DNA of 64,000 nt. Origin: Tridacna crocea (taxonomy: Eukaryota; Mollusca; Bivalvia; Cardiida; Cardiidae). This document shows, piece after piece, positions 1-64,000 of the stretch. Location: NCBI GenBank assembly GCA_943736015.1, contig OX031065.1:35664427-35728426 (forward strand), given 5' to 3'. How positions within the stretch are numbered: position 1 is the first letter of the stretch; the number at the start of each line of letters is the position of its first letter. The position numbers and the translations under genes are program-made. The notes beneath the pieces were generated by a model. That model saw only the letters and a program-made list of their open reading frames with translations, had not been told where the DNA came from and did not search any database.

Positions 1-104
1 TGAACCACACTCTGTGCAAAAAATGGCTAAAGTTGACAGCAAAGAGTATTGACGCAGGTGAGCCCACAGAGTCATCACAGGCTGAACTGGGTCAAATCTA
101 TATG

Positions 105-333
105 TTAACTCTTTACCAAACGACAAAATTTCAGACTGCTTCAAATTGAAAGTATTTGCAGATGACAAAATAAAAGTGACTGAGAATATGAAATTTGTAT
201 CGAAGAGGACAGAAAAAATTGCGGGAAAAGGAGAAAATGCTGGGTACCAGCATTTTCTCCTTTTCCCACAGTATTTTCAAAAGGCTTCTTTCTCAGAGTT
301 GTAAAAAGACGGCATTGTCTGGTAAAGGGTTAA
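105..333 (+). mobile_element. TTAA-A MITE, reference description
   Basis: TTAA at both ends (105-108, 330-333), left TIR TTAACTCTTTACCAAAC and right end GGTAAAGGGTTAA. The central palindrome has stems AGAAAATGCTGG and CCAGCATTTTCTCC, with a slightly damaged outer stem. In the family, about 80-100 bp separate the left TIR from the palindrome and about 65 bp separate the palindrome from the right TIR. No coding capacity. TTAA targets with C-starting ends fit non-autonomous piggyBac-type elements (inference). Lies in PABPN1 intron 5. Confidence 0.88.
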
Positions 334-345
334 TAGTCAATTTTC

Positions 346-568
346 TGCATGTCAAAGGATCATTTTACCTTCAATTGTTCGTCAGACTGCTACATATTGA
401 AAGCATCGGCAGACAAATATGGTGGAATTCTTTGAAAGGGAGATTATGAGAAAAGGAAGAGTGTCTGCTTGTTACCAGAATCTTCTTTTCCTACAATATT
501 TTCAAAAGCCTTTGCCATTGAGGTCGTCACAAAACAGATTTGTCTTGCAATTTAAGGGTTTGATCTTT
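346..568 (+). mobile_element. TTAA-A MITE, degenerate
   Basis: Recognisable by TTGAAAGCATCGGCAGACAA, a decayed hairpin (TGTTACCAGAATCTTCTTTT) and GTTTTCAAAAG-like spacing. Ends just 12 bp from the PABPN1 exon 5 donor. Confidence 0.45.
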
Positions 569-579
569 TTATCACTTAC

Positions 580-689
580 CCTCTTGCTCTAGGTCTTGGT
601 GAGTATAATCCTCGCATTCCACGCCTCGCCCGTCTGAATCCACGGTTTGTTGTACTTATTCCTGGTCTATTGGTTCTCTTTGGAAAAAC
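580..689 (-). CDS. PABPN1: PABPN1 coding exon 5 (end of RRM, start of Arg-rich tail)
   Basis: 110 bp from acceptor GTTAAG to donor GTAAGT. It encodes [18 protein letters not shown] then [19 protein letters not shown], the arginine-rich tail that in the family carries methylation sites and the nuclear import signal. The exon ends two bases into a codon, so at least one more coding exon follows off the left edge. Confidence 0.94.
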
Positions 690-3600
690 CTTAACAGAGC
701 ATAAAAAAAAACCACATTAATTTGTAATTTATCAAATTTTCCATCTTGCTCCAGATGTTGGATATTGTTTAAGGTTACATTGAAAATGATACCAGCTCCA
801 GATAGAGGGAGTGATTTTAATTTCATAATAGAGCTCAAGGTAGTTATTTCGATTCTTGCAGAGACAATGGTGACTTGCATAGCTTTTAAAAATAGTACAG
901 AAAAAGATTAAAACTCTCAGACTATGCCGTCTGTACTTTTATTTAACCTGATTTTTACAGTAGTCTATGATTTAGGTCATCATCATGTTGACATGGAAAT
1001 TGATTTAACAACAAAAAAGAAGTTACAATTTGTTTGAAAATTTAATCCATGGCTAGTACCATAAAAATCCTTACTAGATCCTACTGTGATATAACACTTG
1101 ACAGAAAAAATATCCATATGATATCTACACAGTGTCCAGATATACTTTGACATATTCTGCATGCAATTAAATACATACAGGTTTGTGATTTAATTTGGTC
1201 AATACCTTACGCTCTAATAATCATTGCCCATTCATAAAAATGGCTTGTAAAATGCCGACCACTGGTAAATGATTCTTTCATTCTTATTTTGCAAACAGAC
1301 CTTTTAAAAGTAGCTGTTAATATTAATCAATCTGTCGCTTGTATCCTGAACTTGTCCATAATTTGCCACTTTTGCTTACTTTACCGCAGTAACCATATTA
1401 TAATAACTATTAACTCTTTACCACACAATCCCGACTTTTAACGACCCTGGGAAAAAAAGCCTTTGAAAACATTGTGGGAAAAGGAGAAAATGCTGGTAAC
1501 CAGCATTTTCTCCTTTTCCCACAATGTTTTCTACCCTCTCCTAGTCAAATTTCAATTTCTGATTCACATTTATTGTGTCGTCTGCAAATGCTTTCAATTT
1601 GGACAAGTCCAAAATTTTGCCGTTTGGCAAAGAGTTAATACTAGTAGTTAGTAGCATACCTTAATCTTTGTCACATTCCCAATGTTTTCTATCGTTTTAG
1701 AGTCAAGTTTCACAAATTAAGTCACAATTAATTTTTTGTCTGCAACAGCTATGAAATTGAAAGAGTGCAAAAAATTGTCATTTGGTAAAGAACAGTAAAC
1801 AAATTACTAAATAAAAGACTCAACAGATGGATACCCTCTTACTTTTCTTCCCAAGATCTTTTGATTTCCCATTATGTTCAGACATTTGAAATTATGAAGG
1901 TAAAATCCCTGAATTGACAAGACAACTTTTCAAGAGGACAGTTCCATGAACATTTACAATGTAAGTAGGCAGAGTTTATGGCAGGCCTCAAATTATCTCC
2001 AAGTTTTAACTTACCCTCCTTCATCAATATAATACCTAGTTGTGTTAAACTCAACAACTACAGTTATCTGAACTCAATAATTATAAATGTATGGGTTCTT
2101 CAGTGGTATTTTACCAATAAGTCTAACCATTATCATATCTTCAACTATTTTTATTATGTTCTGATAGAAATCTACAATATATAATAAGTACCTTTATTTG
2201 TCTCCCTCTAAAAAGGGATTCATCCAGGGCTAAACTCGTTGTCACAGAATCTTTATCTGCAAATTCTACATATGCAAACCTGAAATAATCAGAGAGTCAT
2301 TTATGTATTTCAAACCTTTCAAGCCAAGCCCTTGTTGCATAGTGGGTTGCTGGTTCAAATCCCCAGCTCAGATTTCTTTCCAAGGATTGATAATATGGCT
2401 TGTAACATTGGAAAAGGGGCATTCGGACATTTGCATGAAGTGTTGTCACGGATCAGCTTGTACAGTCCGCGCAGGCTAATCCAAGATGGCACTTTACGAT
2501 TGCATTAGATCTTGTGCTGCAGTACACTTGCGCAAAACAGAAAATTGCATAAAAACAGAAAGTGCAGTTTCGGATTAGCCTTTGTCATCCAACTTTCTTT
2601 CCAAGTCTCTTATACTGTTTTCCAGACATACACCTAAGGTCAAAGCGAAAAATCGCCAGAAGGGGAGTTTTCCTCAATAAGGTATCAAACCCACAACCAA
2701 CAAGTCTTGAGTCAGGTAAGGCTTAAAGCTTACCACTGAGCTATCTGGCCAAGCCTTTCAATTGAAAAATGTCTGACTTTTTTACTGGTAAACCTTTGGT
2801 GTATCAATTGAAATTAATTACATGTGTGTCCAGAGTTCCTTCTGCTACAACTGCATACAAGTTGGCCTCCGCAAACTCTCAAAATTTGGTGGGGGAATTA
2901 CTTCTCCCTGGGCCCGTATTCACCAACCATTCTTGAGAATATTCTTAGTCTTATTCTTCAAGGTTTTCCAAATTTGTAAGTAACGCAACTTCTGATTGGC
3001 TAAACCGAATGGTTTAGCCAATCAGAAGTTGCGTTACTTACAAATGTTTTGAGAATTGAGAAACATCATTCAAAATCGGGAGGAGTGGTCAGACTTTGAG
3101 TAGAAGTTTAGAAGGACACTAAAAAGCGGATGTGAGCAGGGTTGTAGAAGGATATAACAATATTATGACAACAGCTTGATTACATAGAAAACCTTGTAGC
3201 TCTACATTACATGAAAACAGTTTATTCTTTTTATCCTTTTAATAACATTATATACTTATTCCTATATTATGAAACTATTTAAATAACATATATTTATTGT
3301 TTTACCCTGGTCAACTTGGCTTAAAACATTATGGAAAGAAATACATGTAATAATGGAAAGATAGCATTATCATCTTAAGCAATGGTCTTTTATTTTTTCA
3401 AAATCTTCCAAGGATTTTTTTTTTCAAATTCCGGGACAGTGTCTTTGCTGAAAATCATTCTATTTACCGGGTAAGAAAAGCTACGATACATTCTTACGAA
3501 AAAGAAAGTTTGCAACATATGCATAGCTGAAAAACAAACCGCAACTGGGGGGATTCAAAACCCATGCGGACAAATTTCCTTGTTTCTATAGGTTGAAAAG

Positions 3601-6600
3601 ACAATACCATAACCACTGAGCTAAATAGATATCTGCCTGACATTAAATCGGGTCAAAGCCATGCATGAAGGAGTAGTCTCCCGTAGCAAACATACTGTCA
3701 GAAGGAGAAACAACTTACTAATTAATAAGAGTCATAATTAACTCATTACCAAACGACAATATTATAGACTTGTCCAAATTGAAAGCATTTGCGGACGACA
3801 AATTAGAAGTGACTGGAAATTTAAAAATTTTTTTTTGAAGGATAGAAAACATTGTGGGAATGGGAGAAAATGCTGGTTACCAGCATTTTCTTCCTTTCCC
3901 ACAATGTTTTCTAAAGGCTTCATTCTCAGGGGCGTCAAAAGTAGGTATTGTGCGGTAATGGGTTAACCCTTTACCAAACAATCCCTGGTTTTTATGACTG
4001 AGACTGAAGCCTTTTGAAAACATTGTGGGAATAGGAGAAAATGCTGGTTACCAGCACTTTCTCCTGTTCCCACAATATTTTCTACCCTGCTGTAAACAAA
4101 TTTCAATTTTTGAGTAACGTTTATTTTGTCGTCTGCAAATGCTTTCAATTTGGACCAGTCTAAAATTTTGTCGTTTGGGAAAGGGTTAAATTGTCGTCTG
4201 CAAACAGTTTCTGCAAGTCCGAGTGTAAAAATCTTGTCAACTGGAAAAGTTTAATCATAGACAGGATAAACACTTACCCTTTTGGATGGCCTGTAAACTT
4301 ATCACACTGTATAGTAACACGGTTTATAGACCCACATCCATGAAAATGCTGTTCCAATTCTTCTGCGGTTGATGCATAATCAACATTGCCAACATATATA
4401 GACCTTGCATCAGCCTCTATCTTTTCATCAAGGGTGGGGAATGCAGATGCTGAAACAAAGTCACAGAAATATTAACCATTTACCAAACAACGAAATTTTA
4501 GACTGGTCCAACTTGAGAGAACTTGCAGACAATAAAATAAATGTTACTCAAAAATTGAAATTTGTTTCCAGCAGGGCAGAAAACGTTGTGGGAATAAGAG
4601 AAAATGCAGGTTACCAGCATTTTCTCCTTTTCCCACAATGTTTTCGAAGTGCTTCTGTCTCAGGGTTGTAAAAACCAGGGATTGTTTGATAAAGGGTTAA
4701 GTCCAAGATGGCACAAATTTAAACCAACCTTGGGCCCACAGGGCGCACTCAATCATAAAGGTACCACTCCACAAATTAGGGTAACGGTACTTTTTATCCA
4801 TTTCTGCTTTTTTTCCCCACTTTAAAAACATAATGCCAAACTATCTAGTGAGAATTTATCAATAACCCGACTGATGTTATATAGCCAAGATAAAGCTGGT
4901 AGCCTGTTTTTACCTTGATATTGAGCCGTTTTAACTCATTACAAAACGACAATATTATAGACTTGTACAAATTGAAAGCATTTGTAGACGACAAAATAAA
5001 AGTGACTGAAAATTTGAAATTTGTTTTGTGAAGGGTAGAAAACATTGTGGGAAAAGGAGAAATTGCTGGTTACCAGCATTTTCTCCTTTTCCCACAGTGT
5101 TTTCAAAAGGCTTCTTTCTCAGGGGCGTCAAAAGTAGGGATTGTGTGGTAATGGGTTAAGGGGGTATAATTACTGTGTCTGCAGTATTTTCATTGTCAAA
5201 ATATACAGTATGTTTATTGCACGCCACATTTTGTTTCTGTATCCTTTTGTATCTAAGTTATCTCCCCTAAAACTGAGGAATTAAAATGTGTAGACAGCTG
5301 ATTTTATGTGATCCTGTGCTCTGGATGCAACAGCCTTATGCAGCAGCATTAATAGAGTACTTTTGTTTCCTTGTAGTGCACGGGTTACACAATCTATTAA
5401 TCCTAAACACCAATATTTCACTTACATAGAGTTGGAGATGACATGTTCATTTTCAGATCTACTGCATTCTGCATTTCCTTTAACTTTTCTGCCTCTTCTT
5501 CCATCTCTCTCACCCTAGCTTTGATTGCCTCAAGCTCCTGTGAAAATATAAACAAGAGTATTTCAACCCTACAACAAACAATCAATCATACATGTATGTT
5601 TCATGGCAAACAAGTCTTCTAAAAATTTTATGGTAAAGGACAAAAATTCTGGTAACAATACCGCCAAAGCTGAAAAATATAATTATGAAACTTTGAAGAA
5701 GCAGGCAAAGAAGGCCTGCTGCAGGGGTCAGTAGAGCAGACATGGCGAATGCTAAAGTTTTACTAGATACTAGGTCTTACAGGCCAGGGTTCATCCAAAT
5801 GACATTGTCTAGCAAAACATCGGATCGGGCTAGTGGAGACTGCCTCCAGGTAGCCCAAATGGTCTAGTGCAAAAATCAAGACAGTTAAGTATCAGTTTGA
5901 ATGCTCTGCATAAGTGACGAAACCCTGCTTAACATGCCCTTTGTTGAACAAGATCGCTTGCATTACTTGTGATTTTGTTAAGTAAGTGACAATTTGTTGT
6001 CAATTCCTGCAGGTACATAATTGTGCATGCATGGTAGTCAATATTTTCACTGGAAAAACCAAAGAGAACCAAAAATAGACTTTAGCAGAGTGGAGTCCAC
6101 AGACTGTTTTGTCATACTTTTTAACGTGATCGTTATCATTTTGTCAGAGTATTTGATATTTAAGCAAGTTTCTTATGTCTAGCTTTTTTGCTCGGAATAC
6201 TGTAGTTTCATTTTGACGAAAACTGAAAATAAGTTATGTAGGTACTGGAGCAGATGAGCAGTAAATATGCCAAGCTTGCATAACTTCAAAATAATGGGTC
6301 CCACGAATCACTGAAATACCACTAAAACACAGAAATACCCTATTTTTTCTATAATCAATTAAAATTACAAATGCAAATACAAAAAATCTGTCTTTTTTGT
6401 GTTTATTTAACACAAGTTATGTTTATATAAGGTGGTTACTATAAAAAATTGACAAAATAACAACATAACATTGACGTCTGTCATAAAAGATGTTCATTGA
6501 AATATCGTTACCCCTTTTCCACTGCCATACCTGCACGACGTAGTAAAATATGGCAATTCAGGGAGTTTACCTTCTTACCACAGTAGCTGTTTTACAAGGT

Positions 6601-8582: not shown

Positions 8583-8810
8583 TTAACCCTTTCCCAACAA
8601 TCCCTGGTGTTTACGGGTCTGGAATAGTAGCCTTTTGAAAACAATGTGGGAAAAGGAGAAAATGCTGGTAACCAGCATTTTCTCCTTTTACCACAATGTT
8701 TTCTACCCTATCATAGACAGAAATAATCTTTTCAGCAAGAGTTGAATTGTCGTCTGCAAATGCTTTCAATTTGGTCTAGTCCGAAAGTTTGTCGTTTAAG
8801 AAAGGGTTAA
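8583..8810 (-). mobile_element. TTAA-A MITE, GGGTCTGGAATAG subfamily
   Basis: TTAACCCTTTCCCAACAATC to GAAAGGGTTAA. Near-identical layout to the copy at 19665-19891 (shared TACGGGTCTGGAATAGTAGC and CAGCAAGAGTTGAATTG). Confidence 0.92.
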
Positions 8811-11981: not shown

Positions 11982-14900
11982 GTAAGTAAGGTCGATTTTG
12001 TGACTTACCGGTAGTCTCTTACAGTTGACTTTTACCGTTAATTTGGAATTTCCCCTCACTGAACCTCTCATATTTTCTTTTACTTAGGTGCCGGGGAATC
12101 TGGAAAGTCGACGATTGTAAAGCAGATGAGGATTCTTCACGTCAATGGATTTAGTCCGGAGTGAGTAATTTTGATTAATTTCATTACTAGCCCTCTCGTA
12201 ATTCATATTTGATACCCTTCCAAACCAGGCAATCAGAACTATTATTATGTATGCATAGAATTTTACTTGGGGGTTGGGTCAAACGGTTTCAAAATCATAT
12301 CCTTTCATAAACAGCTTCTTTCTTATTACAGTGACAGGCCTGCATCCTGTTAATCCAGTACAGCAAGTCCTGAGTTTTAACAATCCTTGGAGAAAAGTCT
12401 TCTCAGGAAACATTCTGAAAACATAGGAAAAACAGAAAAGCTGGAGCAAGTATTTTCTCCACTTTCTACAATATTTTCTGTTATATCAAGAATGGTTCCA
12501 TTGAGCACAATTTCAAAGAATGGCTCCATCCATTGAGCTTTTAAGTAGCATCTGCATATTATGTTCTAAATTTGGTACAGTATAATTTTCAGTCATAGTA
12601 ATAAGTTGAACCTTTATGGAACAATCCTTGGTTGTGACGACTCGGAGGAAAAAGCCCTCTTTCATTGTTGAAGAAGCAGAAAATGCTGGAAATTAGCTTT
12701 TTCTCCTGTTCCCACAGTGTTTTCTACTTACTAAAATCAACTTTCAATTTCTGAGTCCCCTTCATTTTGCTGTCTGCTAAATACTTCCAATTTGGACAAG
12801 TCTAAAATTTTGTTGTTTAGTAAAGAGTTTATCTTTGGATATGTATTTGTGTATTCACAACTTTCCTTAATATTTCAGTGAAAGGAAACAGAAAATAGAT
12901 GATATTAAAAGGAATATCAAAGATGCCATTCTGGTATGTACATTTACATTTTTAAAAGACCATGACAACGCATGGTCAACCTCAATAATGGACACTTGCA
13001 GCATTTCTTTTCATATTTGGACATTGACTGTGGACTGCGCGGTCTCATGTCAATTATGAGATTATGATGGCAAACCTATGCACTGGACTTACTTCCAGTT
13101 TCATCAGAGCTCCAGATAGAGGGTGTGATTTTGATTTCAAAATTGAAAATATTTTACCTCTACTAAACCCTATGTTATGGGTACTCATTAGAATCGTCTC
13201 ATTGAGACAATTCTAATGAGTACCCACAACACAGGGTTTGGAAGAGAAATAATGGAGTTTGAATACCATCGCTCTGTCCTATCTTTTGCTCTGGTTTCAT
13301 TGGTTTATATCGTTATTGTAGCGAAATGCAAATAGTTGTAGAGACACACATGACCAAGGACACAAATTATTGTGTAAATATTTTGTAACCTTAAGTGCTT
13401 GTAGAAGGTGATTATAAAAATGTATCTAGAAAAAATAAAGAAAAGCAATTTATCATGTTTGGCGGCCATTTTGTGTGTACTTCGGGAAGTGTAAACATGT
13501 TGAGTGACAGATGAATCAAAGATGTTTTCTTATGTCAAGCGTTTAGAATTAAAATAGTTGTTTTTGAAACAAAGGTTTATTGAGTTTGTGAGCAGCATTA
13601 TTCTTCAAATTTCGCATTTGTTGTCAGTTTGTGAACATATAAGAGTTTAAGCATGCGCACAAAATCTGTGCAGTTTTCAATCAATTTCTAATTTCATTGA
13701 TCATCTTGGTATCCATAGGCGACCAGTCAAAAATTAAAATAGCCTCTCCAAAACATTTATGTACACTTACACTTGGCCTAAAAAAAATTATGTGTTTAGG
13801 GTTTCCTTACCCTACCTAGAAAATGCTGCCGACCCTAAACTTTGTACCCCATGGTTGAAAAAAATGTTTTTTTTGTGTGCAGGGGTGGGCAATTCCTGAA
13901 AGAGAAGCCTTTTGAAAACTTAGTGGGAAAAGGAGAAAATGCTGGTAGCCAGCATTTTCTCCTTTTCCCACAATGTTTTCTTCTCTGCTGGAAACAAATT
14001 TTGCTTTTTGAGTAACATTGATTTTATTGTCTGCAAGTGCTTTCAATTTGGACCAGTCTAAAATTTTGTCGTTTGGGAGTTAAGCCCTCTTTTGCCAGAG
14101 CACTTCTCAAATATTTTTTTACCAAACAATAAAATTTTAGACATGTCCAAGATTGAAAGAACTTGCAGAGAAGAAATTCATTTTCCCTCTGATCAGATTT
14201 ATCGTTGCAATGTAGAAAGCATTGTGTTAAAAAAAAAAAATAGAGAAAATACTTGTTACTAGCTTTTTTTTCTTTTTTCCATTTTGCTGGTAAAGCCTTC
14301 TATCCTTGGGTTGTTAAAGCAGTATTTTTTCACAAACTTTTATGTTTCACGTTTCAATTTTTCAACCAACAAATAGTTTGTGAAACTGATCTCTTATGAT
14401 AAACTTGGAAGAAGCTTCTAGTCTACTGCATATATACAATTTACTCTTTGCTACACAAACCAACTTTTGACGACCCCAAGAAAGAAGCATATATAGAAAA
14501 CATTGATGGAAAAGGAGAAAATGCTGCGAACAAGAAAATCCTAAAATTGAGAAATTATCATATTACCAAGATTTAATTTGTTGTCTGTAGATGCTCTGAA
14601 TTTGGTCCAATCCAGTCCAAAACTTTGTTGTTTGGTAAATAGTTAAGTGAGCTACTGCAGTTATAAGACTAAAATTATTGTGAAAGTAGCCTTGACTCTT
14701 TACCGCACTATTAAAATATACACTTGTCCAAATTGAAAGCATTTGCAGACAACAATTTTAATGTGACTCAATTAATGTTATTTGTCTTTGATGGGTTTGA
14801 AAACATTAAGGGAAAAGGAGAAAATGCTGGTTACCAGCATTTTCTCCTTTTCCCTTAATGTTTTCAAAAGGCTTCTTCCTCAGGGGTTGTTAAAACTCGA

Positions 14901-17900
14901 GATTGTGCGACAAAGAGTTAAACACCATTTAAATCTCTACCAGATAATAAAAGATAGGCATTCTTACTTGAAATAGACTGCAGATGACAAAAAAAAATTT
15001 GGCTGGTGGTAACCGTCATTTTCTCCATTCCACAATGTTTTCTACCCTGCTGGACACAAATTTGACTTTTTGAATCAGGTATATTTTGTCATCTGCCTGT
15101 CCAAAATTTTGTCGTTTGGTAAAGAGTTAAATGGCTTGTAACAGGCAATCACATCCTTTCTATCAGAACAAAAGTTTCTATCAGAACGAAAGTTTTTAGA
15201 ACCTGTTTTCAAAAGCATTCTTCTTCAGGGTCAGTCGAACACAGGTCAAGGGTTAAGCCTGGTCAAAATTGAAAGCATTTGCAGATGACAAATTGAATTT
15301 GACTAATTAAAGAAATAAAATTTGCGTTAGCCTTTTTGGAAGGGAAGAAAATATTGTGGGAAAAAGAAAATGCTGGTTACCAGCAGCATTTTCTTCTTTT
15401 CGCACAATGTTTTCAAAAAGCTTCTTTCACACGGTTATTAAAAGTCAGTAACCCTTTACCAACAATCCCTGGTTTTTACAACCCTGAGATAAAAGCCTTT
15501 TGAAAACATTGTGGGAAAAGGAGAAAAGGTAACCAGCCATTTCTCCTATTACAACAATGTTTTCTACCCTGCTGGAAACAAACTTTCAATTTTTGAGTTA
15601 CGTTAATTTGTGGTCTGCAAGTGCTTTCAGTTTGGACCAGTCCAAAATTTTGTCGTTTGGGAAAGAGTTAAAAGCAAAACACATTTAAATTCTTGCTGAA
15701 AACGGTCCTTGTTGCTCATTTTCTTTGAAAGAAAAGCGCTCTCACGTAAATAAGTTGTGCTTAACCTGCGAAGAGACTCTTCTATTAACATTGATCGTTG
15801 GTGGAATAAATGCGGTTTAACCTGATATACATTCCTTCATTAGGTTCAAAAGAAGATATTGAAAGCTAGTTACCCTTTCCAATCTTGAAAACACTACGTC
15901 TTGCTTCTTTGCCATTCTTGGAAGAAATCTATTGAAAATACATACATGTGGGAAGTTTCTGTTTAAAAAATAATTGCTTTTGTCATAATGTCGTTTGTTC
16001 TTTGTTTTATGTACATCAACATATAATTTCTGTTTGTACATTCTATTTGTTCATGATAATTACATTGATTTCAGTTGTCAGGTTTTTAATAGAAGAAAAA
16101 ATAAGTAGCAAATGATAGAACAGATTTATTAAAGATCTCTAAAAATATTTTACCCTTGACCAAACAATCCTGAAAGGCTTTTGAGAACATAGTGAGAAAA
16201 AAAGATGCTGATAACTGGCATTTTTCTCCTTTTTCCACAATGTTTTCTGTCCTTTCAAAACATTTATTTCATCTTTTGGACCACAGTTAACTTGATGTCT
16301 GTCGATGTCAGTCTTACATTTTGGTGTCTGATTTTTGAAAACATTGTGGGAAAAGGAGAAAATGCACAAACACAAACATACTCCACAGAGAATGGAAGCG
16401 CATTTCATTTACGAACAAAGTACCTAAATTCAGCATTTCGTGATCTATCAGTTATAATGAGCGTGTTGTCTTTGACCAGCTTTTTCTGCTTTTTCCACTG
16501 TGTTTAGTGACCGTCAGGGTGAACTGCAGTTCAATATACATCTATGTATATTGATATTTGATTTATTGTCAGCAGATGTGGAATTTAGACAAGTGTACAA
16601 ATTTTAAGCAGGATAACATGGTTACCCGATTCAAAATGGTGGCCAGTTTTCTAGATACATGTAGGCCAACATTGATTTTAATTTCATTATCATGAAAGAA
16701 CAAGATTTTTCTGAGCTTTTGCATGGATAGATCAGACACATCAACCTTGAATAACTCATTGTAACCAAACAACAATATTGTAGACTGGTCGAAATTGAAA
16801 GTATTTCCAGACGATAAAATAAAAGGTACTGAAAATTTGAAATTTGTTTTGTGAAGGGCAATAAAATATTGTGGGAAAAGGAGAAAATGCTAGTGACCAG
16901 CATTTTCTCCTTTTCCCACAATGTTTTCTAAAGGATTCTTTCTCAGGGGCGTCAAAAGTAGGGATTGTGTGGTAATGGGATAACAGCTAACTGTAGTAAC
17001 AACATAAACTCACTGAATCAACATATTTTACGTTATGACCGTTCCAAATTGAAAGCACTTGCAGATGACAAAATAAATCCTAAATGTAACTAAAAAATTG
17101 AAATTTGTTTCCAGCAGGGTAGAAAACATTGTGGGAAAAGGAGAAAATGCTGGCTACCTGCATTTTCTCCTTTTTCCCCACAATGTTTTCAAAGGTTTTT
17201 ATCTCGGGGTCGTAAAAACCAGGGATTGTTTAGTAAAGGGTTAACCAATTATATTTCAATTATATTTTATTTTAAAGAAAAAAATGGAGAATTTCAGTGT
17301 TTCGGTGGTATTTCGATGATTCATTAGACCCAAAGTCGTCATTGTGTGGTATAGAGTTAAAGCTGTCACTTGCATGCCAAGATTTTTAAGATTGTTTTTG
17401 GGGGTATACTGGAATCAGCCTGTCTATCTGTGTGTCTGTCTGTCCATCCGTGTGTGTCCGTCTGTATGGTAAAGGGTTTAAAATCCTGCCCATGTTTCCT
17501 TGTTTGGTTTATTTATTTCAGTGTGACAGTTTCAAAATCCATTTTTTGTCTTCACCAATACTACTAGAAAGAAGTGCTATTTGTTTCAGAGCACCAGAAG
17601 TACATGTATTACCATTTAATATGTGCAAAAAAATACATAGGTGTACTTATAATTCAATATCCACTACAAAAAATTACATTAGGTGTACTAATAACTCAAT
17701 ATCCAAGACAAAAAATATGCGCCGTAAGATGCACAGAAACATTAATTTTGTTCATATACATTGTAAATGTTAAAACTCGATGTGAAAATTCTTTGCCAGA
17801 CACAGATTAACTTCTGCTGTGTAGTTGATGGCTTTTACTTTTGTTGTTTAATGGTGACTGGTCTATTGAGAAATGATCAAACTGCACAGTTTTCATACCG

Positions 17901-20900
17901 TCTTTAAATTTATATATTGATAGTGATCTACACCCAAAATGTTTTCATGGAAAATTTGACTTGAACAGACTTGCAAGTACTGATATAATAAGTCTTGTCT
18001 TGTGCTACTGACTGAACCTGTGAATTATTTTGGAACCATAGTTACATTTGAAGCTAGTGTTGATCAAGATCATAAAGGATGAATTATGCAGTAATTAAGA
18101 TTTTTGAATCTCCACTGCCTGCTTTGCAGATATATTCTGGACAGGCATGGAACAGAGAACATCCAGGCGATTCATCAGACAGACAAACAGCGCACCTTGG
18201 CCTAGTTTTGATTTATTCAATCGAAAACTTTGATTGGCTGATTATCGCGTTCGAACGAGATATTATCTTGTTCAAACAACATAATGAATGACTTTGATTG
18301 GCTGATTGTGTCATTTGATCAAGATTATAATTATTATTTTGTTCAAACTACAATATTTCTTTTTTTTTTCAAAATTGTTTATTGAAAAAAAAAATCGAGA
18401 AAATGAATTTTGCTTTTTTGCATTTATTTTTTTTATAAAAAAAACTTGAGAAAACAAATTACTGTCTCTTGAGAATGAGATGAATTGAAAAAAATGCACA
18501 TTTCACTGAAGTGCCACCATACAAGTTGGAGCGGTCTAAAATTTTGTCATTTGGTATTATAGTTGATTTAACTCTTTACCACACAATCCCGACTTTTAAC
18601 GACCCTGAGATAGAATCCTTTTGAAAACATTGTGGAAAAAGGAGAAAATGCTGGTAACCAGCATTTTCTCCTTTTTCCACAGGGTTTTCTACCCATCCAA
18701 AAACAAACTTTAATTTTCCAGCCACATTTATTTTCTCATCTGCAAATGCTTTCGATTTGGACAAGTCTACAATTTTGTCGCATGGTAAAGTGTTATCTGG
18801 CACTCTGGGGTCTGAGATGAGCTGAGCATACAAACTTGTTATTCAGGCAAATACCCAATTTATGAAGACGTATTGATAGACTCAAAGATCAATATATGTG
18901 TTAGGCAGTGAAAAAAACGGATTAATCCTTGCTTTCTCTCTCATACAGATCTTTCACCTGATCTCTTTACCAAACAATAGAAAATTTAGACTTGTCCAAA
19001 TTTAGATTATTTTCAGACAGCCAATGAAACGCTACTTAAGTGATGGAATTTTTCTCAAAAAGGGTAAAAATTATTAAGGAAAAAGAAGTAAATGCTGGTA
19101 ACCAGAAGTTGCCCAATTTCCAACAATTTTTCCAAAGGTTTCTCTTTTTAGGGTTGGTAAAACTGGCCAATGTGTGGTAAAGTGTTAACTCTTTAACTCA
19201 TTAATGCAAATTTTCCATGTCTTAACAACCCTAGAAAATTGAATTTTTGAAAACACTGTGGGAAAAGGAGAAAATACTGGTAATCAAGGCTTTCTCCTTT
19301 TCCTATATTGTTTTTCCATTCTTTTTGGTACAAGTACCACCACTTTTGCAACATTTAATTTGTCGTCTGCAAAGGCTTTCAATTTGGGCAAGCCCGAGAT
19401 TTTGTATTTTGATAAAGAATTAACAAACAACAAAATGAAGGCTCATGTCTTTTTTCTGATCCAAATTAACCCATTACCACACAATCCCATTTTTTGATGA
19501 CCCTGAGAAAGAAGCCTTTAGAAAACATTATGGGAAAAGGAGAAATGCTGGTAATCAGCATGTTCTAATTTTCCCACAATGGTTTCTACCCCTCACACAA
19601 CAAATTTCAAATTTTCAGTCTCTTTTATTTTGTCGTCTGCAAATGCTTTCGATATGGACAAACCTTAACCCTTTCCCAAACAATCCCTGGTTTTTACGGG
19701 TCTGGAATAGTAGCCTTTTGAAAACATTGTGGGAAAAGGAGAAAATGCTGATAACCAGCATTTTCTCCTTTTCCCACAATGTCTTCTACCCTATCATTGA
19801 CAGAAATTATATTTTCAGCAAGAGTTGAATTGTTGTCTGCAAATGCTTTCAATTTGGTCCAGTCTAAAAGTGTCGTTTGGGAAAAGGTTAAGTTATGTAG
19901 TTTGGGAATGAGTTAAAGCCTTCACAAACAGAAAATTCAAACTTGGGTAGACCCAAATCGTTAGATTTTTCTTTGGAGAATGGAAAACATTAAAAAAAAA
20001 AACGATATGCCATCATTTTACTCATTTAATACATGACATTGTACCACTCAGCAAAATTCTAGAAATTACAGATTTGAAAATATTGTGGGAAAAGGAGAAA
20101 ATGCTGGCTTCCAGCATTTTTTCCCTTTTTACAAGAGGTTTTCTAGCCTTTCACATACAAATTGGATCATTTTAGTCGTTTTCAATTTTTTGTTTGCCAT
20201 TAGTTTCGATAGGGTTAGGTCTGAAGTTTTGACATTTGCAAAAAAATATTATTCCACCATTATGGACTGTGGATGGGTCCAAAGTATTGTTTTCTGTTAA
20301 CTCATTACCACACAATCCCGACTTTTAACGACCCTGAGAAAGAAGCCTTTTGAAAACATTTTGGGAAAAGGAGAAAATGCTGGTAACCAGCATTTTCTCC
20401 TTTTCCCAAAATGTTTACTTCCCATCCCAAAACAAATTTCAATTTTTGAGCCAAATTTATTTTGTCGTCTGCAAATGCTTTCAATTTGGACAAGTCTACA
20501 AAATTGTCATTTGGTAAAGAGTTAACCCATTACCACACAATTCCTACTTTTGACACCCCTGGGAAAGAAGCCTTTAGAAAACATTGTGAGAAAAGGAGAA
20601 AATGCTGGTAACCAGCATTTTCTCCTTTTCCCACAATGTTTTCTACCCTTCACAAAACAAATTTCAAAATTCCATTCACTTATATTTTGTCGTCTGCAAA
20701 TACTTTCAATTTGGACTTTGAGTCTAAAATATTATTGTTTGGTAATGGGTTAAATAATTAACCTTTTTTCTTTATCACACAATTCCTGAATTTTAACGAA
20801 CATAAACAAGCCATTTGAAAACATTGGCAACCCACATTTTCCCTTTTTCCCACAAAGTTTCCTGCCCTATCAACAGCAAATTTTATAATTTGAGCCACCT

Positions 20901-44900: not shown

Positions 44901-47900
44901 AAAACATTGTGGGAAAAGGAGAAAACGCTGGTTACCAGCATTTTCTCCTTTTCCCACAATGTTTTCTAAAGGTTTCATTCTGAGGGGCGTCAAAAGTAGG
45001 GATTGTGTGGTAATTGGTTAAGTCTTTAGCAGACAACAAAAATGTTGTAGCGAAATTAGTCTAAATTGAAAGCATTCTTGGCTAACAATTTCAGGTTGGG
45101 CTGGATTCAATACGTGCCTGGGGTGTGAAATGGTGGAAAATATTAGGTGAAAAGGAGAAAATGCTGGTTACCAGCACTTTCTTCTTTTCCCACAATGTAA
45201 CATTTTTAAATGGCTTCTTCCTCAAGGTTGTTAAAACCCTGGATTATGTGGTAAAGGGTTAACTCTTTGCCCAACAAATTATAAGATTTTTTCGAAACTG
45301 AAAGCATTTTGCAGACGACAAAATGAATGTTAATTAGAAATTGAAATTTTTCTTTCTGAAAGGTAGAAAACACAGGAGGACGAAGAGAAAATGCTGGTTA
45401 CCAGTATTTTCTCCTTTTCCCACAATGTTTTCAGAAGCCTTTTTCTTCAGGGTCATCAAAACTCAGAATTTTGTGGTAAAGGTTAACTCTTTACCAAACG
45501 ACAAAATTTTGGACTAGTCCAAATTGAAAGCATTAGCAGACGATAAAAGAAATGCGACTTAAGAACTGAAATTTGTTTTAGGAAGGGAAGAAAACATTGT
45601 GAGTAAAGGAGAAAATGCTGGTTTCCAGTATTTTCTCCTTTTCCCACAATGTTTTCAAAAGGCTTCTTTCACAGGGGTGTTAAAAGTCGGGATTGTATGG
45701 TAAAGGGTTAACTGGGTCAGGAAGATTTCTTTTTTGATGACAAGATTATACTTGAAACCCTAGTACATGTGATAACACCTTACTTTACCTTTCTTACTAG
45801 TGATAAACTATAATTCTTTACCATAAACAAGGTCCTTTTTCTTGCAGAGACGGGCTGTTTCGAATCCGATATTTGCCAAAAGAGGAAAATTGATATTTGT
45901 ACTCCGTATGATGATTATATATAATATTAATGTTTAATATATAATATTAATGTTTTAATAATGTACTTTTGAGGCTGTTATTGCCAGAATGGCTTACAGT
46001 AGTGTATGTGCAACATCAGAGTATAAATTGTAAGATGTAATCTGAAATAAAGACTGTCCCCAAAGCGCCTATTGAGTTGACATTTTTTGAGGCTTATTTT
46101 CTACTTCTATTGATTATGAAGCATTGAAAAGATTTGTGGATGTTTATGAAAAGCAAGAGGATGCTTATGTTTACATAATTAATGTGTGGAAGACAGGGAG
46201 TCAAGGGATAAGTGGAGGGAGTTTCAAGTCTGTTCACATATCTCTCTGTGTGTTAGATTGTCTAAGTATATTCACAGTTTAAAAATAGACATGTGTTACC
46301 AAAAATAGCCCCAAAACTATTTCAACCTTCATGATTTTGAATAATGAGTAGCTTCAAATGTCACAGCAGCCTTTCTCATCTTGATAATAGATCATGTGAT
46401 ATTTGAAAGAACATCAATTAGGTAGGAGCAATAAGGCATTAAACATTTACATTCTTGTCAAATAGATAGTCTTGTTTGGTCCTATGCCTACAGGGCAGTA
46501 TAATTACAGTTATGTAAATTACAGTTAAGTTTTTTTGTTGTTGAAGATGTAACTTTTTTACCCTTTTGCCACACAATCCTAAGTTTTAACAGCCCTGCCA
46601 GTGAAGGTCTACAGGAAAGAAAAACCTTTATTTTCTAAATATGCCTTCTGCTCTTTCAAAGCCAAAGTCTAATTATTAGAGTCACATTTAACTCTTTACC
46701 ACACGAGAAAATTTTGGACTGGTCCAAATTGAAAGCATTTACAGACGACAAAATAAAGGTGACTGAAAAATAGAAATTTGTTCTGGGAAGGGTAGAAAAC
46801 ACTGTGGGAAAAGGAGAAAATGCTGGTTACCAGCATTTTCTCCTTTTCCCACAGTGTTTTCAAAAGGCTTCTTTCTCAGGGGCGTCAAAAGTAGGGATTG
46901 AGTGGTAATGGGTTAACTCTTTACCAAACGACAATACTTTAGACTGGTCCAAATTGAAAGCATTTGCAGACAACAAAAATAAAAGTGCCCCAAAATTCGA
47001 ATTTTGTTTTGTGAAAAGTCGAAAACATTGTGAGAAAAGGAGAAAATGCTGGTTACCAAATTTTTCTCCTTTTCCTAGAGTGTTTTCAAAAGGCTTCTTT
47101 CTCAGGGCGGTCAAAAGTAGGGATTGTTTGGTAATGGGTTAATTTGTCATCTGCAATTTCAATTTAGACAAGTCTATATCATTACCAAACGACAATATTT
47201 TAGCCTTGGACAAATCAAAAGCATTTGCAGATGACAAAATAAAAGTGACTGAAAATTTGATTTTTTTCTGACAGATAGAAAATATCGTGGGAATAGAAGA
47301 AAATGCTGGTTACCCAGCATTTTCTTCATTTTACACAATGTTTTCTAAATGTTTCTTTTTCAGGGTCGTCAAAAGTAGGGATTGTGTGGTAATGGGTTAA
47401 AAAATGTCATCTGTAAAAGAGGTAACCATTTACTACATTATCCTGACTTTTTAATGATCTTGAGAAAGAAAGCTTTTGAAAACATTGTGGGTAAAGGAGA
47501 AATGCTCGTAACCAGCATTTTCTCCCTTTCCAAGAAGTAATTTTACCCAATTGAAGACAGAAATCATCCTATTAGCAATATTTAACCCTTTACCAAACGA
47601 CAAAAATTTAGACTCATCCAATTTGAAAGCACTTGCACACGACTATATAAATGTAACTCAAAAACTGAAACTTGTTTCCGGCAGGGTAGAAAACATTGTG
47701 GGATAAGGAGAAAATGCTGGTTACCAGCATTTTCTCCTTTTCCTACAATGTTTTCAAAAGGCCTTTATCTGAGTGTCGTAAAAACCAGGGCTTGTTTGGT
47801 AAAGAGTTAAATATGTTGTCTGCAATTGTTTTGAGTTTGGACTAGTCTAGAATGATATTGTCTGATAGAGGGTCAACTGCATGGCCATGAGGCTTTGAAG

Positions 47901-50900
47901 TATCTCATATTGAAAAATGACCTGACTCTTTACCCTGGCTACAAACTTTCTGTACTTAACTCTTTACCACACGACAGAATTTTGGACTAGTCCAAACCGA
48001 AAGTATTAGCAGACAACAAAATTAATATAAATCAAAAATTGAAATTAATTTGGAAAGGGTTGAAAACATTGTGGGAAAAGGAGAAAATGCTGGTTACCAG
48101 CATTTTCTCCTTTTCCCACAATGTTTTCAAAGGCTTTCTTTCTCAGGGTTGTTAAAAGTAGGGATTGTGTGGTAATGAGTTAACTTTTTACTGAACAGTC
48201 CTAGGTTTTACCCTCTTTACTAACTGACACAAATGTAGCGTCCGAATTCCAAGTGTTTGCAGGAGCAAATTTCAGCATGGCTTAACTCTTTATCAAACAG
48301 CTAAATCTTAGACTGGTCCAAACTGCAAGCATTTGCAGACAACAAAATAAAAGAGGCTGAAAACTTGAAATGTTTTGGGAAGGGAAGAAAACATTGTAGG
48401 AAAAGGAGAAAATGCTGGTTTACCAGCATTTTCTCTTTTTCCCACAAGTTGTTCAGAAGGCTTCTTTCTCAGGGTCGTGAAAGGTCGCAATTGCGTGGTA
48501 AAGAGTGAAATTATAGGTGCAGCAGCAGTTTTTCTATGACCGTAAAAAAAATTGTGCGAAAAGGAGAAAATGCTGGTTACCAGCATTTTCTCCTTTTCCC
48601 ACAATGTTTTCAAAGGTCATTGTCATCAGGGTCGTTAAAAGTAGAGATTGGATTTCATGGCAAAGAATTAACATAAATAAGCCCTTTAACAGTGACAAAT
48701 GAGATAGGACAGAATTTTGTAGACAACAAACAATGCACAACCTTTGGAAATCACAAACTAAAAAGGGTTCGTAAAACAGTTTGAAAAAAGACAGTTCTAA
48801 ATCTGCAGACCACAAGCTTAAAATTTATTATAGAATTTCATAAGGGATGAAAAGGTTAACCCTTTACCAAACAATCCCTCGTTTTTATGACCCTGAGAGA
48901 GAAACCTTTTGAAAACATTGTGTGAAAAGGAGAAAATGCTGGTAACCAGCATTTTCTCCTTTCCCTACAATGTTTTCTACCCAGCTGGAAATAATTTCAA
49001 CTTTTCGGTTATGTTTGTTTCGTTGTCTGTAAGTGCTTTTAATATGGACAAGTCGAAAATTTTGTCGTTTGGTAAATTAGGGTTAAATCCTTACTGCAAA
49101 TTGGAGTATTAACTGAACTTAAAATCAGCAAAGTTCCTATTTAAACCTTTCCCAAATGATAAATTTTGGACCCTTCCAAACCGAAAGAGTTTGCAGACAA
49201 CAATGTCAGATTTGGAGAAAATGGCAGAAAGTTCTCAAAAAGGGTAGAAAACACTGTGGGGAAAGGAGAAATTGATCTTTACGAGCAATTTCTCCTTTTC
49301 CCACAGTGTTTTCAAAAAACTTTTACTGCAGACACGTAAAAATCAGGGCTTGTTTGGGAAAGGGTTAAACCTTTACTGAACAATCCCTGGTTTTTCCGAC
49401 CCTGAGATAGACACCTTTTCAAAACATTGTGGGAAAAGGAGAAAATGCTGATAACCAGCTTTTTCTCCTTTTCCCACAATGATTTCTGTAACCTGCTGGA
49501 AACGATCTTAAATTTTGAATTACATGTACATTTATTTTGTCGTCTGCAAGTGCTTGCTGTAATTGGACCATCCTAAAATTTTGCTGTTTTGTAAAGAGAT
49601 AATTAGATTTTACATCACATGGTATTAGATCCAAGATCAGATTACCTTTTGTGCAGTCTGATCTTGATCTGTGTCACACAGTTATCTCCTATGGTTTTTG
49701 AAGTGCAGTGGACATGCATTTTACAATGATTCACCAGATCCACTGTACAACTTTGGTTGTTAATAACTTCGATCTACAATCAGACTGTGGATTCAGGGCA
49801 GTCTGATCTCTGATCTTCATCTCTACACTACACACCTATCAGCAACAGCAGTGAAAGCTGTATAGAACACTCAAAGGGTTAGGAACTAAACAAATATTGT
49901 GTTTTGAGCTATTCCACAAAACCTGGTTGTAAACCGCCTTCTATATCAATTATATATGGCACATAGCAATTATCCAAGATCTAAAAATAGACTGTGAACT
50001 TCGTCTGGGGTAATATTATGAAAAAAAAGATCGATAGTATTATAGAATGCATTGTGGGGAGGCAGAGAGAGCACAAGCAAACCATATTGAGCTTTGTGAA
50101 GAAGGATGGGGGATGCATTATTGTCTTGTCTCTATTAACTCTTTACCACACAAGAAAGTTAATAGACTGGTCCAAATTGAAAGCATTTGCAGACGACAAA
50201 ATAAAGGTGACTGAAAAATTAAAATTTGTTCTGGGAAGGGTAGAAAACACTGTGGGAAAAGGAGAAAATGCTTGAAACCAGCATTTTCTCCTTTTCCCAC
50301 AGTGTTTTCAAAGGGCTTCTTTCTCAGGGGCATCAAAAGTAGGGATTGTGTGGTAATGGGTTAATCCTTTCCCAAGCAATCCCTGGTTTTTCACGACCCT
50401 GAGAAATATTTAGCCTTCTGAAAACATTGTGAGGAAAGGAGAAAATGCTTGAAACCAGCATTTTCTCCTTTTCCCACAATATTTTCTACCCCCCCAGATT
50501 AAAATTTCAATAAATGAGTCCCATTAATTTTGTCTTCTGCAAATGCTCTCAATTTGGACCAGTGTAAAATTTTGTCATTTGGTGAAAAGTTAAGCTCATT
50601 ACCTCCTGCAGTCAAAACCACCACAAACCTTGGCAAACCTCCTTTCATGCCTCCCCAAGCAACTATCTTTGAACCTTCAAAATTCAAAGCAGCCACACAA
50701 TATAACTTTGAATAATTATTGTACAAGAAAACTTAAGTAATTCTTAAACCTGGTAGAGAAAATTGTGTTAAAAGAGGAACTTGTTAGTGGTTCAAAAGCT
50801 CTTACTCAGTTTTATTAAGGGTTATAGACCTTTTGGGAAAATTCCCTTTTTAAAAATAGTTGACCTTGCCATGATTGACCTGTAACCCAAGGACACATTG

Positions 50901-58460: not shown

Positions 58461-58688
58461 TTAACCCTTTACTCCATAAGGCACTTCTATGGTATCTCTA
58501 ATTGTCCCCATATAACAGCAAGGATGAAGTGGTTTCTTATGTGTATATGACACCTTTTGATAGCATAGAAAACATTGTGGCAAAAGGTGAAATTGCTCAT
58601 CATGAGCAATTTCACCTTTTGCCGCAATGTTTTCCAAAGGCGCCTACAAGCAATGCATAGAAATGAGTATCTATGAATTAAAGGGTTA
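58461..58688 (-). mobile_element. TTAA-B MITE
   Basis: TTAACCCTTTACTCCATAAG to GAATTAAAGGGTTAA; hairpin GTGGCAAAAGGTGAAATTGC with a TCATCATGA centre. Confidence 0.93.
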
Positions 58689-60575: not shown

Positions 60576-60582
60576 AACTTCT

Positions 60583-60767
60583 TTAACTCTTTACCACACG
60601 ACAAAATTTTAGACTTGTACAAATTGAAAGCATTTGCAGACAACAAAACAAACGTGGCTCAAAATTTAAAATTTGGTTTGAAAAGAGTAGAAAACATTGT
60701 GGGAAAAGGAGAAAATGTTGGTTACCAGCAGGGTCGTTAAAAGTCGGATTGTGTGGTAATGAGTTAA
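60583..60767 (+). mobile_element. TTAA-A MITE with right hairpin arm deleted
   Basis: TTAACTCTTTACCACACGAC, left stem complete to GGTTACCAGC, then straight to AGGGTCGTTAAAAGTCGG; end GGTAATGAGTTAA. 185 bp. Confidence 0.9.
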
Positions 60768-60795
60768 GAGGATTGATGATACTCATGCAACAGGA

Positions 60796-61018
60796 TTAAC
60801 TCTTTACCACATGACAAAATTTTAGACTGGTTCAAATTGAAAGCATTTGCAGATGACAAAATAAAAGTGACTGAAAATTTGAAATTTGTTCTGGGAAGGG
60901 TAGAAAACACTGTAGGAAAAGGAGAAAATGCTGGTTACCAGCATTTTCTCCTTTTCCTACAGTGTTTTTAAAAGGCTTCTTTCTTAAGGGCGTCAAAAGT
61001 AGGGATTGTGTGGTAATG
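60796..61018 (+). mobile_element. TTAA-A MITE with matched stem changes
   Basis: TTAACTCTTTACCACATGAC; stem AACACTGTAGGAAAAGG pairs with CCTTTTCCTACAGTGTT, two changes matched in both arms. Right TTAA lost. Confidence 0.92.
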
Positions 61019-62567: not shown

Positions 62568-62680
62568 GAATTGTTGGAAAGGAGAAAGTGCTAGCTACCA
62601 GCATTTTCTCCTTTTTCCACAACTTTTTCAAAAGCCTTCTCCTGGGTTATTAAAACCCTAGTTTCTGTGATAAAGACATG
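62568..62680 (+). mobile_element. TTAA-A MITE, hairpin and right arm
   Basis: TTGTTGGAAAGGAGAAAGTG, CTAGCTACCAGCATTTTC, TTTCAAAAGCCTTCTCC, GTGATAAAGACA. Confidence 0.6.
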
Positions 62681-62775
62681 AAGAGTTGAGCCTTGATTTA
62701 GAATGATTATCAATTTTTTCAAGGTCCTGACTACTACCACTCGCAGACAACGGACATCTTTAATTACAAACACTA

Positions 62776-62927
62776 GTCTTGCAGACCACTGAAGGAATGT
62801 GGCTAAACAGATGTCATTTACCTTTGAAAGGGTAGAAAACATTGTGGGATCAAGAAATAATGTGGGTTGGCAGCAATTTCTCCTTCATTACACAATATAT
62901 TTGAAAGATTTATTCCCAGGATGATTA
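62776..62927 (+). mobile_element. TTAA-A MITE, degenerate
   Basis: CTTGCAGACCACTGAAGG, AGGGTAGAAAACATTGTGGG, GGCAGCAATTTCTCC, end GATGATTAA; abuts the TTAA-B copy. Confidence 0.6.
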
Positions 62928-63153
62928 ACCCTTTACTCCATAGATACTCATTTCTACACATTGCTTGTACTAGCCTTTGGAAACCATTGTGGCCAAAGTT
63001 GAAATTGCTCGTCATGAGCAATTTCACCTTTTGCCACAATGTTTTCTACACTATCAAAAGGTGTCATTTACACATAAGAAATGGCTTTATCCTTGATCTT
63101 ATTTAGGGTCGATTAGAGATACCATAGAAATGCTTCATGGGGTAATGGGTTAA
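62924..63153 (+). mobile_element. TTAA-B MITE
   Basis: TTAACCCTTTACTCCATAGA to GGGTAATGGGTTAA; hairpin with CGTCATGAGC centre near 63015. Confidence 0.93.
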
Positions 63154-63180
63154 ATAGGATTCTTTGATGAGGGGCTAATT

Positions 63181-63484
63181 TTAAGGTAAGACCTGTGCAA
63201 TGCACTTCCGGTGAACATGGGGCAAAAATTCTAATTGGTGGATAAGTAAGGATTTATGCAGAAATTTGATTTTTGCACTTTTCTAATGGATCAGAAATTC
63301 TTAGGTAATTGTTATCTCTTTTTAAATTGAGAATATAGTTGTTTATGATTCAAAGAAGGAAAAAATGGAAAAAAAAATGAATCGGTGAAAGTAGTTCAAT
63401 AATACTCATTTTAATTATAGCTAATTTTGCAGGATGATATTTTAGTGGAAATAGCTGTTTTCCATTACACAGGTCTTACCTTAA
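63181..63484. mobile_element. TTAA-D MITE
   Basis: 304 bp with TTAA at both ends and a perfect 17-bp inverted repeat: TTAAGGTAAGACCTGTG (63181-63197) and CACAGGTCTTACCTTAA (63468-63484). No central hairpin. Shares its right TTAA with the next TTAA-B copy. Confidence 0.85.
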
Positions 63485-63711
63485 CTCTTTACTCCTCAGA
63501 TACTCATTTCTACACATTGGTTGTAGGAGCCTATGGAAAACGTTGTGGCAAAAGATGAAATTGCTCGTGATGAGCAATTTCACCTTTTGCCACAACGTTT
63601 TCTATGCTATCAAAAGGTGTCTCATATACACATAAGAAACAGCTTCATCCTTGATGTTATTTAGATTCATTTAGAGGTACCATAGAAATGCCTTATGGGG
63701 TAAAGGGTTAA
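63481..63711 (+). mobile_element. TTAA-B MITE
   Basis: TTAACTCTTTACTCCTCAGA to GGGTAAAGGGTTAA. Stem AACGTTGTGGC with GCCACAACGTT: the A-to-G change is matched in both arms. Confidence 0.94.
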
Positions 63712-63903
63712 GACACAGAATACCAGTTTCAAGATACAGAAAACTAATGCAAATAGGGGGGATTTTGTTTTGGAAAAAGGGTAGGGAATTTTTCATATTA
63801 CTCATTTTGCTGACCCTTAATCAAAGCACCATGATATTTTAAAGTCCTGACGAAGAAGGAAAAATTATGGGAAAATTAGTTCCCATATTTCTCCCATGAA
63901 GTT

Positions 63904-64000
63904 TCAACTCTTTACCAAACAACAAAATTTTAGACTGGTCCTAATTAGAAGCATTTGCAGACGACAAAAATGAATGTAACTAAAGAATTGAAATTCGCTT
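63904..64000 (+). mobile_element. TTAA-A MITE, cut by window end
   Basis: TTTCAACTCTTTACCAAAC, AAAATTTTAGACTGGTCC, AAGCATTTGCAGACGACAAA; hairpin expected just beyond the edge. Confidence 0.85.

Follow-up and report, generated by a model that had tools for sequence, protein, structure and literature searches.

A stretch of 64,000 nucleotides of the Tridacna crocea genome (contig OX031065.1, positions 35,664,427 to 35,728,426; this whole stretch is called the window here) carries, many times over, a short element that we call family A. Our results indicate that family A is probably a long-lived and abundant miniature inverted-repeat transposable element (MITE) of the piggyBac type that inserts at TTAA and would depend for its movement on a transposase supplied in trans by a 7.2-kb piggyBac element of the same genome or by a close relative, its large central palindrome acting in cis as a self-pairing module. 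Within the MITE no other part is as well conserved as the palindrome, which also occurs in MITE families whose left flanks differ; changes in its two arms coincide more often than expected by chance.

Copies in the window were called with an iterated profile of 225 positions. This gave 122 non-overlapping segments of family A and its relatives, which together take up 33.0% of the 64 kb; 61 of the segments are full length. The first-pass annotation, made from the letters of the window, had counted about 103 copies over roughly 30% of it, which holds in substance. The consensus is 228-229 bp long with both TTAA included, and the tips are TTAA-C(T/C)C(T/A)TTACC (TTAA-CYCWTTACC) at both ends. Full-length copies in the window are on average 85% identical to their own consensus (range 64-95%). 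Features of a MITE are the short length, the inverted termini, the high copy number and the non-coding sequence, the last judged from length and the window list of open reading frames only. The centre of the consensus is a 67-nt palindrome of two 33-bp arms and one centre base (GGTNACC); folded as single-stranded DNA it reaches −37.2 kcal/mol as compared to a shuffle mean of −6.6. A perfect 65-nt palindrome had been ascribed to each intact copy: the palindrome around GGTNACC is there, but it measures 67 nt in the consensus, and mismatched arm pairs are common among individual window copies. A second, weaker conserved block lies in the left flank at model positions 46-60 (AAGCATTTGCAGACG), where divergence is 0.12 as compared to 0.18-0.23 in the adjacent bins.

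The exact 31-nt core of the element occurs 183,553 times (91,619 + 91,934) in the 1.049-Gb genome, and the reversed control does not occur at all. The core with any centre base has no occurrence in viral contigs. We further sampled 20 arbitrary 10-kb places on 16 contigs, at round coordinates picked by hand and not by a random draw. They contain 227 segments (228 with a smaller search set) and 101 full copies, with copies in 19 of the 20 places. Mean coverage is 19.0% (bootstrap 14.1-24.3%), and roughly one fifth of the genome seems to consist of this family; the window is denser than this average. Extrapolation gives about 1.2 million segments and about 0.53 million full copies in the genome, an estimate of the genome-wide count that the first-pass annotation had proposed as a check. 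The same annotation had seen one explosive burst, which is not supported in that form. Among 161 sampled copies the nearest neighbour is 88% identical in the median case and 97% at most, and together with the 85% identity to the consensus this points to many source lineages active over a long time, a better fit than a single burst. Few of the single MITE families described so far may be as abundant as this one; we found no comparable case in the open-licence literature. No description of the family itself was found in the literature searched, which comprised open-licence papers only and is no proof of absence from print. All papers cited here are taken from excerpts. According to one of them MITEs are a considerable part of bivalve genomes and are left unclassified there (PMC10294476); the family is named neither in the excerpt of that paper nor in that of a Manila clam paper (PMC11592408).

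The TTAA is derived from the target. Its outer T is kept in 59 of 64 copies aligned to the left end and its outer A in 67 of 75 aligned to the right end, while the base just outside is mixed at both ends. Therefore the boundary is the 4-bp TTAA and not TA or a 3-bp site, and a TTAA target site duplication, as is characteristic of the piggyBac superfamily, is present. Empty sites were sought with the joined flanks of 94 full copies that have TTAA on both sides and usable flanks, some of them from overlapping or duplicate loci. Among the matches listed, most were the MITE family itself, and three cases with non-MITE flanks were examined. A full family A copy at locus L028 (1611-1839) lies inside another interspersed repeat, and 7 of 10 aligned paralogue rows have a single TTAA at the exact point (L002, L008, L018, L043, L016:6342, and two copies of a single element, L046 and L049); the rows without it are L014, L016:7497 and L025. 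The paralogues of L028:9329-9557, an element of a second family, B, have no complete TTAA at the insertion point, and those of L025:6668-6890 have diverged too far to serve as evidence. One paralogue without the family B insertion is in the window:

27086..27205, minus strand: paralogue lacking the L028:9329-9557 insertion, 88.7% over 124 nt spanning the junction, TTAA incomplete

Seventeen pairs of copies in the window abut with one TTAA in common (7 ++, 5 +−, 3 −− and 2 −+). Simulation of 100 random insertions into TTAA sites gave 23.0 ± 3.5 such pairs (95% range 16-30). The observed rate is thus within random expectation, no special mechanism is needed, and we reject preferential insertion beside existing copies. 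Head-to-tail arrays at 20296-20716, 44792-45713 and 46688-47142 could suggest a dispersed satellite amplified by slippage or unequal exchange, in which TTAA would be incidental. However, abutting junctions are found in all four orientations and at the rate of random TTAA insertion, the flanks change just outside TTAA, and empty sites exist; we therefore reject the satellite, which is very improbable. The first-pass annotation had named two outcomes that would refute its reading, a lack of insertion/empty-site polymorphism at TTAA and copies running past TTAA as part of a larger satellite, and neither came true: empty sites with a single TTAA exist among paralogues, as distinct from alleles, and the flanks do not continue the element. 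Family A copies in the window referred to in this text are the following:

106..331, plus strand: full copy with TTAA at both ends (profile)
1412..1637, minus strand: full copy with the top score in the window (240.3 bits) and perfect 33-bp palindrome arms at 1465-1531
3739..3964, plus strand: full copy, its right end the closest of 124 MITE right ends to the left end of the 7.2-kb piggyBac element (34/39 nt)
3965..4188, minus strand: full copy, tail to tail with the 3739..3964 copy, one TTAA in common
4473..4698, plus strand: full copy between PABPN1 exons (profile and exon matches)
4932..5157, plus strand: full copy between PABPN1 exons (profile and exon matches)
8585..8809, minus strand: full copy (profile)
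14695..14919, plus strand: copy with a perfect palindrome of 36-bp arms at 14796-14868, in which positions 23 and 24 of the two arms have changed as pairs
20299..20524, minus strand: full copy, head-to-tail with the 20524..20752 copy
20524..20752, minus strand: full copy, one TTAA in common with the 20299..20524 copy
29080..29303, minus strand: full copy (profile)
41687..41912, plus strand: full copy with a paired T-A to C-G change at arm position 26
44793..45709, plus strand: array of four head-to-tail copies with a single TTAA at each of three junctions
46689..46914, plus strand: full copy (240.2 bits), head-to-tail with 46914-47140

Insertion into introns of two essential genes had also been claimed, and for one identified gene this is borne out by the copies between exons of PABPN1. 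The exon at about 4.3-4.4 kb of the window matches PDB 3ucg (E 3.5e-25), which identifies PABPN1, and we take the neighbouring exons at 2.2 and 5.4 kb to belong to the same gene.

A genome search with the piggyBac transposase family PF13843 gave 118 matches, of which 26 are nearly complete and lack internal stops, and 17 of the transposase loci were read. Three of these (L031, L042 and L045) belong to the family of the candidate autonomous partner, which has a 492-codon open stretch at five places. The right tip of this element, TTAACTCATTACCACTCAGA, has five exact matches in the genome (contigs C3, C5, C10, C15 and C18), and at each of them a PF13843 match lies about 1.84 kb away; of the 32 matches in all, the remaining 27 have one mismatch and are located elsewhere. 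All six matches of the left tip, TTAACCCATTACCGTTCAATAACGCCTTTT, are exact (C3, C5, C9, C15, C17 and C18) and lie 4.1-4.4 kb from a PF13843 match, the one near the C17 tip having internal stops. Four copies have both ends and measure 7202, 7203, 7217 and 7351 bp. The C5 and C15 copies are 99.9% identical over 6.26 kb and end exactly at ...GTGGTAATGAGTTAA, after which unrelated DNA follows on the right. Judging by this identity, the element has probably moved recently. It also contains nested MITE copies, including one abutting pair, in C5:7864466-7871668 and its C15 copy, and both hold an internal direct repeat of about 240 bp with 80% identity.

The tips of the 7.2-kb element, read as sequence at the C5, C15 and C18 sites, are TTAA-CYCATTACC. 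The consensus right end of the MITE, read inward, agrees with the left end of the element at 30 of 39 nt without gaps, and single MITE right ends at a median of 27.5 and a maximum of 34 of 39 (n = 124). In the inner 26 nt of this comparison 18 positions agree, as compared to a mean of 7.3 and a maximum of 16 in 20,000 shuffles. Similarity between the MITE and the other end of the element is seen in the tip only. The left end of the element contains four copies of the motif TTTTGACGCCCCT (at most 2 mismatches), 35 bp apart. The encoded transposase matches piggyBat (9c0f, 9.3e-40) and piggyBac (6x67, 3.3e-36) along most of the protein and also in the cysteine-rich end; the Cys/His-rich C-terminus aligns with that of piggyBat. 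Judged by this alignment, the aspartate positions of the catalytic triad look intact. Regarding the terminal motif, the majority right end of the MITE is CCCT, the left end is mostly CTCT, the tips of the 7.2-kb element are CCCA and CTCA, and the family B consensus has CCCT at both ends; the motif given for piggyBac is CC[C/T]T within terminal inverted repeats (TIRs) of 12-19 bp (PMC2872659). The first-pass annotation had proposed a piggyBac-type TTAA MITE driven in trans and had suggested a search for a full-length element with the same TIRs and a DDE transposase. The 7.2-kb element with its open piggyBac frame is such an element; TTAA, tips and subterminal sequence are in common, and mobilisation of the MITE in trans is what this likeness suggests.

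Other piggyBac loci were rejected as partners by their tips: L029, L038 and L044 (CCCTTTATATAC), L030 and L041 (CCCTWGTCATGC), L033 (CCCTTTCAGTGC) and L036 (CCCATTTATGCC). L037 and L040 are near-identical to members of this rejected group, and five loci (L032, L034, L035, L039 and L043) have ends that were not resolved. Some of these other elements (L029, L038, L044; L040, L041) are about 2.6-2.9 kb long with open transposase frames, some at least 99% identical between places, and it looks as if several piggyBac families may have been active recently at once. Membership in the Kolobok superfamily would also account for TTAA: Kolobok elements also duplicate TTAA, and according to the excerpts bivalves are rich in one lineage of them. 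Kolobok termini are, however, 5'-RR..YY-3' (PMC9587614) and family A copies begin with CY; moreover, the element with the same tips and subterminal sequence encodes a piggyBac transposase. On account of the termini we reject Kolobok membership as highly unlikely.

The larger sample of MITE copies comprises the window, loci L009-L028 and most of L001-L008 (L002, L005 and part of L006 were excluded for overlap). Among 179 near-full family A copies, the palindrome diverges from the consensus by 0.077, as compared to 0.197 and 0.206 for the inner flanks and 0.13 and 0.12 for the TIR regions. For the following test and for the classification of families A and B, L001-L008 were left out. Copies found by the left flank alone (window and L009-L028, n = 189), a set free of selection for the palindrome, diverge by 0.192 in the flank and 0.088 in the palindrome; the palindrome is mostly missing in 12 of them. 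Family B is 229 bp long, has the tips CCCTTTACYCCAT and a left flank different from that of family A. Its exact core occurs 14,735 times genome-wide, and 276 palindrome-bearing loci in the window and the 20 arbitrary places divide into 229 of family A, 17 of family B and 30 unclear. When A and B are aligned, the palindrome agrees at 58 of 67 positions, the left flank at 51 of 98, which is the level of shuffles, the short right flank at 24 of 41, just above shuffles, and the 17-nt ends at 13 and 14 positions. The nine differences in the palindrome are the centre base and four arm pairs, each changed on both sides (paired transversions). A type C, intermediate between A and B, was seen in two copies. 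Copies of these types in the window are:

49142..49366, plus strand: family C-type copy with the tip CCTTTCCCAAA, palindrome arm states between A and B
23013..23145, minus strand: family B copy, palindrome and right part; the element runs about 95 bp further on its left side
58555..58687, plus strand: family B copy, palindrome and right part, preceded by about 95 bp more of the element
62927..63059, minus strand: family B copy, palindrome and right part (profile)
63483..63616, minus strand: family B copy, palindrome and right part (profile)

Changes in the two arms are coupled within family A as well. Among 93 window copies we counted 45 paired double changes as compared to 13.2 in shuffles (maximum 23 of 1000), a figure inflated by subfamilies. 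In a larger set of 252 copies, after removal of 19 rows resembling family B and 5 with insufficient flank, there were 86 paired changes and 51.1 when shuffled within divergence classes (maximum of 500: 75); with one subfamily position omitted the numbers are 69 and 45.6 (maximum 64). Arm pair 14 was counted genome-wide, the arms being distinguished by a centre base A or T, so that the counts cover copies with these centre bases and not those with C or G. It is intact in 183,553 copies, changed in one arm in 8,308, in the other in 5,334 and in both in 2,330, where 241 would be expected if changes were independent (odds ratio 9.7). Age heterogeneity (E[r2]/E[r]2 = 1.18) cannot produce this excess. 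Transition mismatches are 349 wobble and 283 non-wobble, and these counts do not separate RNA pairing from DNA pairing. It thus appears that a pairing-like constraint acts on the palindrome and that evolution preserves its symmetry, which suggests that the element gains from it.

There are two other ways to read a conserved symmetrical sequence. The stronger of them, which we consider a serious contender of clearly lower probability, is that a dimeric protein binds the palindrome as a dyad site. The simplest candidate would be the Cys-rich C-terminal domains (CRDs) of a piggyBac transposase dimer, and conservation would then reflect protein contact and not self-pairing. The two CRDs of the piggyBat dimer bind an imperfect palindrome, and piggyBac ends hold identical 19-bp palindromes (PMC11707139); the C-terminus of the partner transposase is of this kind, and the palindrome is the best conserved part of the MITE. 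However, 33-bp arms are far longer than the palindromes bound by CRDs, the 7.2-kb element does not obviously carry the site, and paired transversions at four arm positions between A and B, together with the 9.7-fold coupled transition pair, are not expected of a fixed contact sequence. The other possibility, which we regard as rather improbable, is that the palindrome has no function and owes its symmetry to repair or replication in which one arm serves as template for the other (quasipalindrome correction). The 62 of 95 paired-change cells that have neither a pair nor a half-pair in the five nearest copies are in line with such neutral correction. It predicts symmetry but not slow evolution, whereas the palindrome diverges about 2.6 times less than the flanks and is the best-conserved stretch between families A and B. 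Self-pairing is favoured since sequence change is tolerated when the partner base changes too; conservation and paired change together indicate a module whose self-complementarity matters.

Several points weigh against the interpretation that we prefer. As to the partner, the second base of the left MITE tip is mostly T (48/64) and departs from CC[C/T]T, and similarity to the 7.2-kb element goes no further than the tips and, at one end, about 26 nt. In the element itself we could not separate any hairpin from the nested MITE copies, so that the palindrome is not explained as inherited from this partner. The left boundary of the element was set by the tip pattern and matching lengths, diverging left flanks not having been seen. 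Because 17 of 118 transposase matches were read, five of them with unresolved ends, another piggyBac element could fit better. As to the palindrome, the L001-L008 copies in the sample were fetched by the exact core, which biases them to intact palindromes. The excess of paired changes within the family A sample is only moderate, and transversion pairs alone (25 as compared to 14.5 shuffled, maximum 26) are reached by shuffles. The single arm pair counted genome-wide involves transitions and was picked for its excess in the sample (6 as compared to 2.0). Copies from one source are not independent events, and common ancestry can multiply the count of double changes. If this is true, a source lineage must still have carried the paired state.

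Taken as a non-autonomous, trans-mobilised piggyBac MITE with a self-pairing palindrome, family A would work as follows. The 228-229 bp element would insert into TTAA as a non-autonomous member of the piggyBac superfamily, with the transposase of the 7.2-kb element or a close relative probably supplying mobility in trans. The palindrome would improve amplification in cis, acting as a self-pairing structure (DNA hairpin, cruciform or transcript) more than as a fixed binding sequence. More tentatively, and more likely wrong than right, it may be a portable hairpin that several TTAA MITE families with unlike ends have taken up and that amplifies them far beyond ordinary cut-and-paste, for example if excised or replicating copies were led through a hairpin stage; in this way one family could have come to occupy about a fifth of the genome. 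The part that internal MITE sequence plays in amplification is a long-standing question. Here hundreds of thousands of natural palindrome variants in one genome make it testable by counting and assay, and the candidate autonomous partner still has near-identical copies in the genome.

Some other repeats were noticed. A different interspersed palindromic repeat with the core GGTTTAGCCAATCAGA or close variants is present in the window at 2972-3045, where its 35-bp arms are perfect, and at about 56082, as well as in L013 (about 4522) and L026 (about 7875). A further palindromic repeat, core TCTAATGAGTACCC or close variants, occurs at 13101-13253 of the window, in L013 (about 5664) and in the flanks of L025:6668-6890; in L025 it appears to contain a family A MITE. 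One 166-bp tandem repeat forms two arrays about 10 kb apart (31909-33118 and 42806-43714), and separate arrays with 156-bp and 165-bp units lie at 27793-28721 and 26190-26813. There is no Rfam match within the window, and Pfam searches of seven open reading frames in the window gave only a Ninjurin match below the cut-off.

What is new here is a large central palindrome shared between piggyBac MITE families with coupled arms. The nearest precedent is the CMITEs of the coral Acropora (PMC2872659). They are similar in TTAA, in tandem arrangements and in part in the TIRs, which are of the CCCTTT type in CMITEs, although abutting copies in our case are explained by random TTAA insertion. CMITEs likewise have a piggyBac partner, AmiPB1, with a TIR in common and weak adjacent similarity. 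By description they also form several families with a common internal region better conserved than the TIRs; here the palindrome (58/67 between A and B) is likewise better conserved than the left flank (51/98). In contrast, CMITEs are about 100 bp long with an estimated 1,600 or so copies in A. millepora, while family A is 228-229 bp long with about half a million full copies by extrapolation, and no large palindrome is described in the excerpt, where we find one of 67 nt with coupled arm changes. piggyBac and piggyBat share with our system the TTAA target, a DDE transposase with a cysteine-rich C-terminus and repeated motifs inside one end; their palindromes are short, located in the ends and bound by CRDs, whereas the one described here is long, central, located in the MITE and apparently absent from the partner element (PMC11707139). 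T2-MITE/Kolobok of Xenopus is similar in being a long-lived and abundant set of TTAA MITE families in an animal genome, but has a terminal AGGRR motif and a presumed Kolobok transposase (PMC6004289). In Blepharisma, too, the most abundant repeat of the genome is a MITE with an identified autonomous partner, BogoMITE, which differs in belonging to the Pogo family, in its TAA target and in its 8,000 copies in a ciliate germline genome (PMC9942856).

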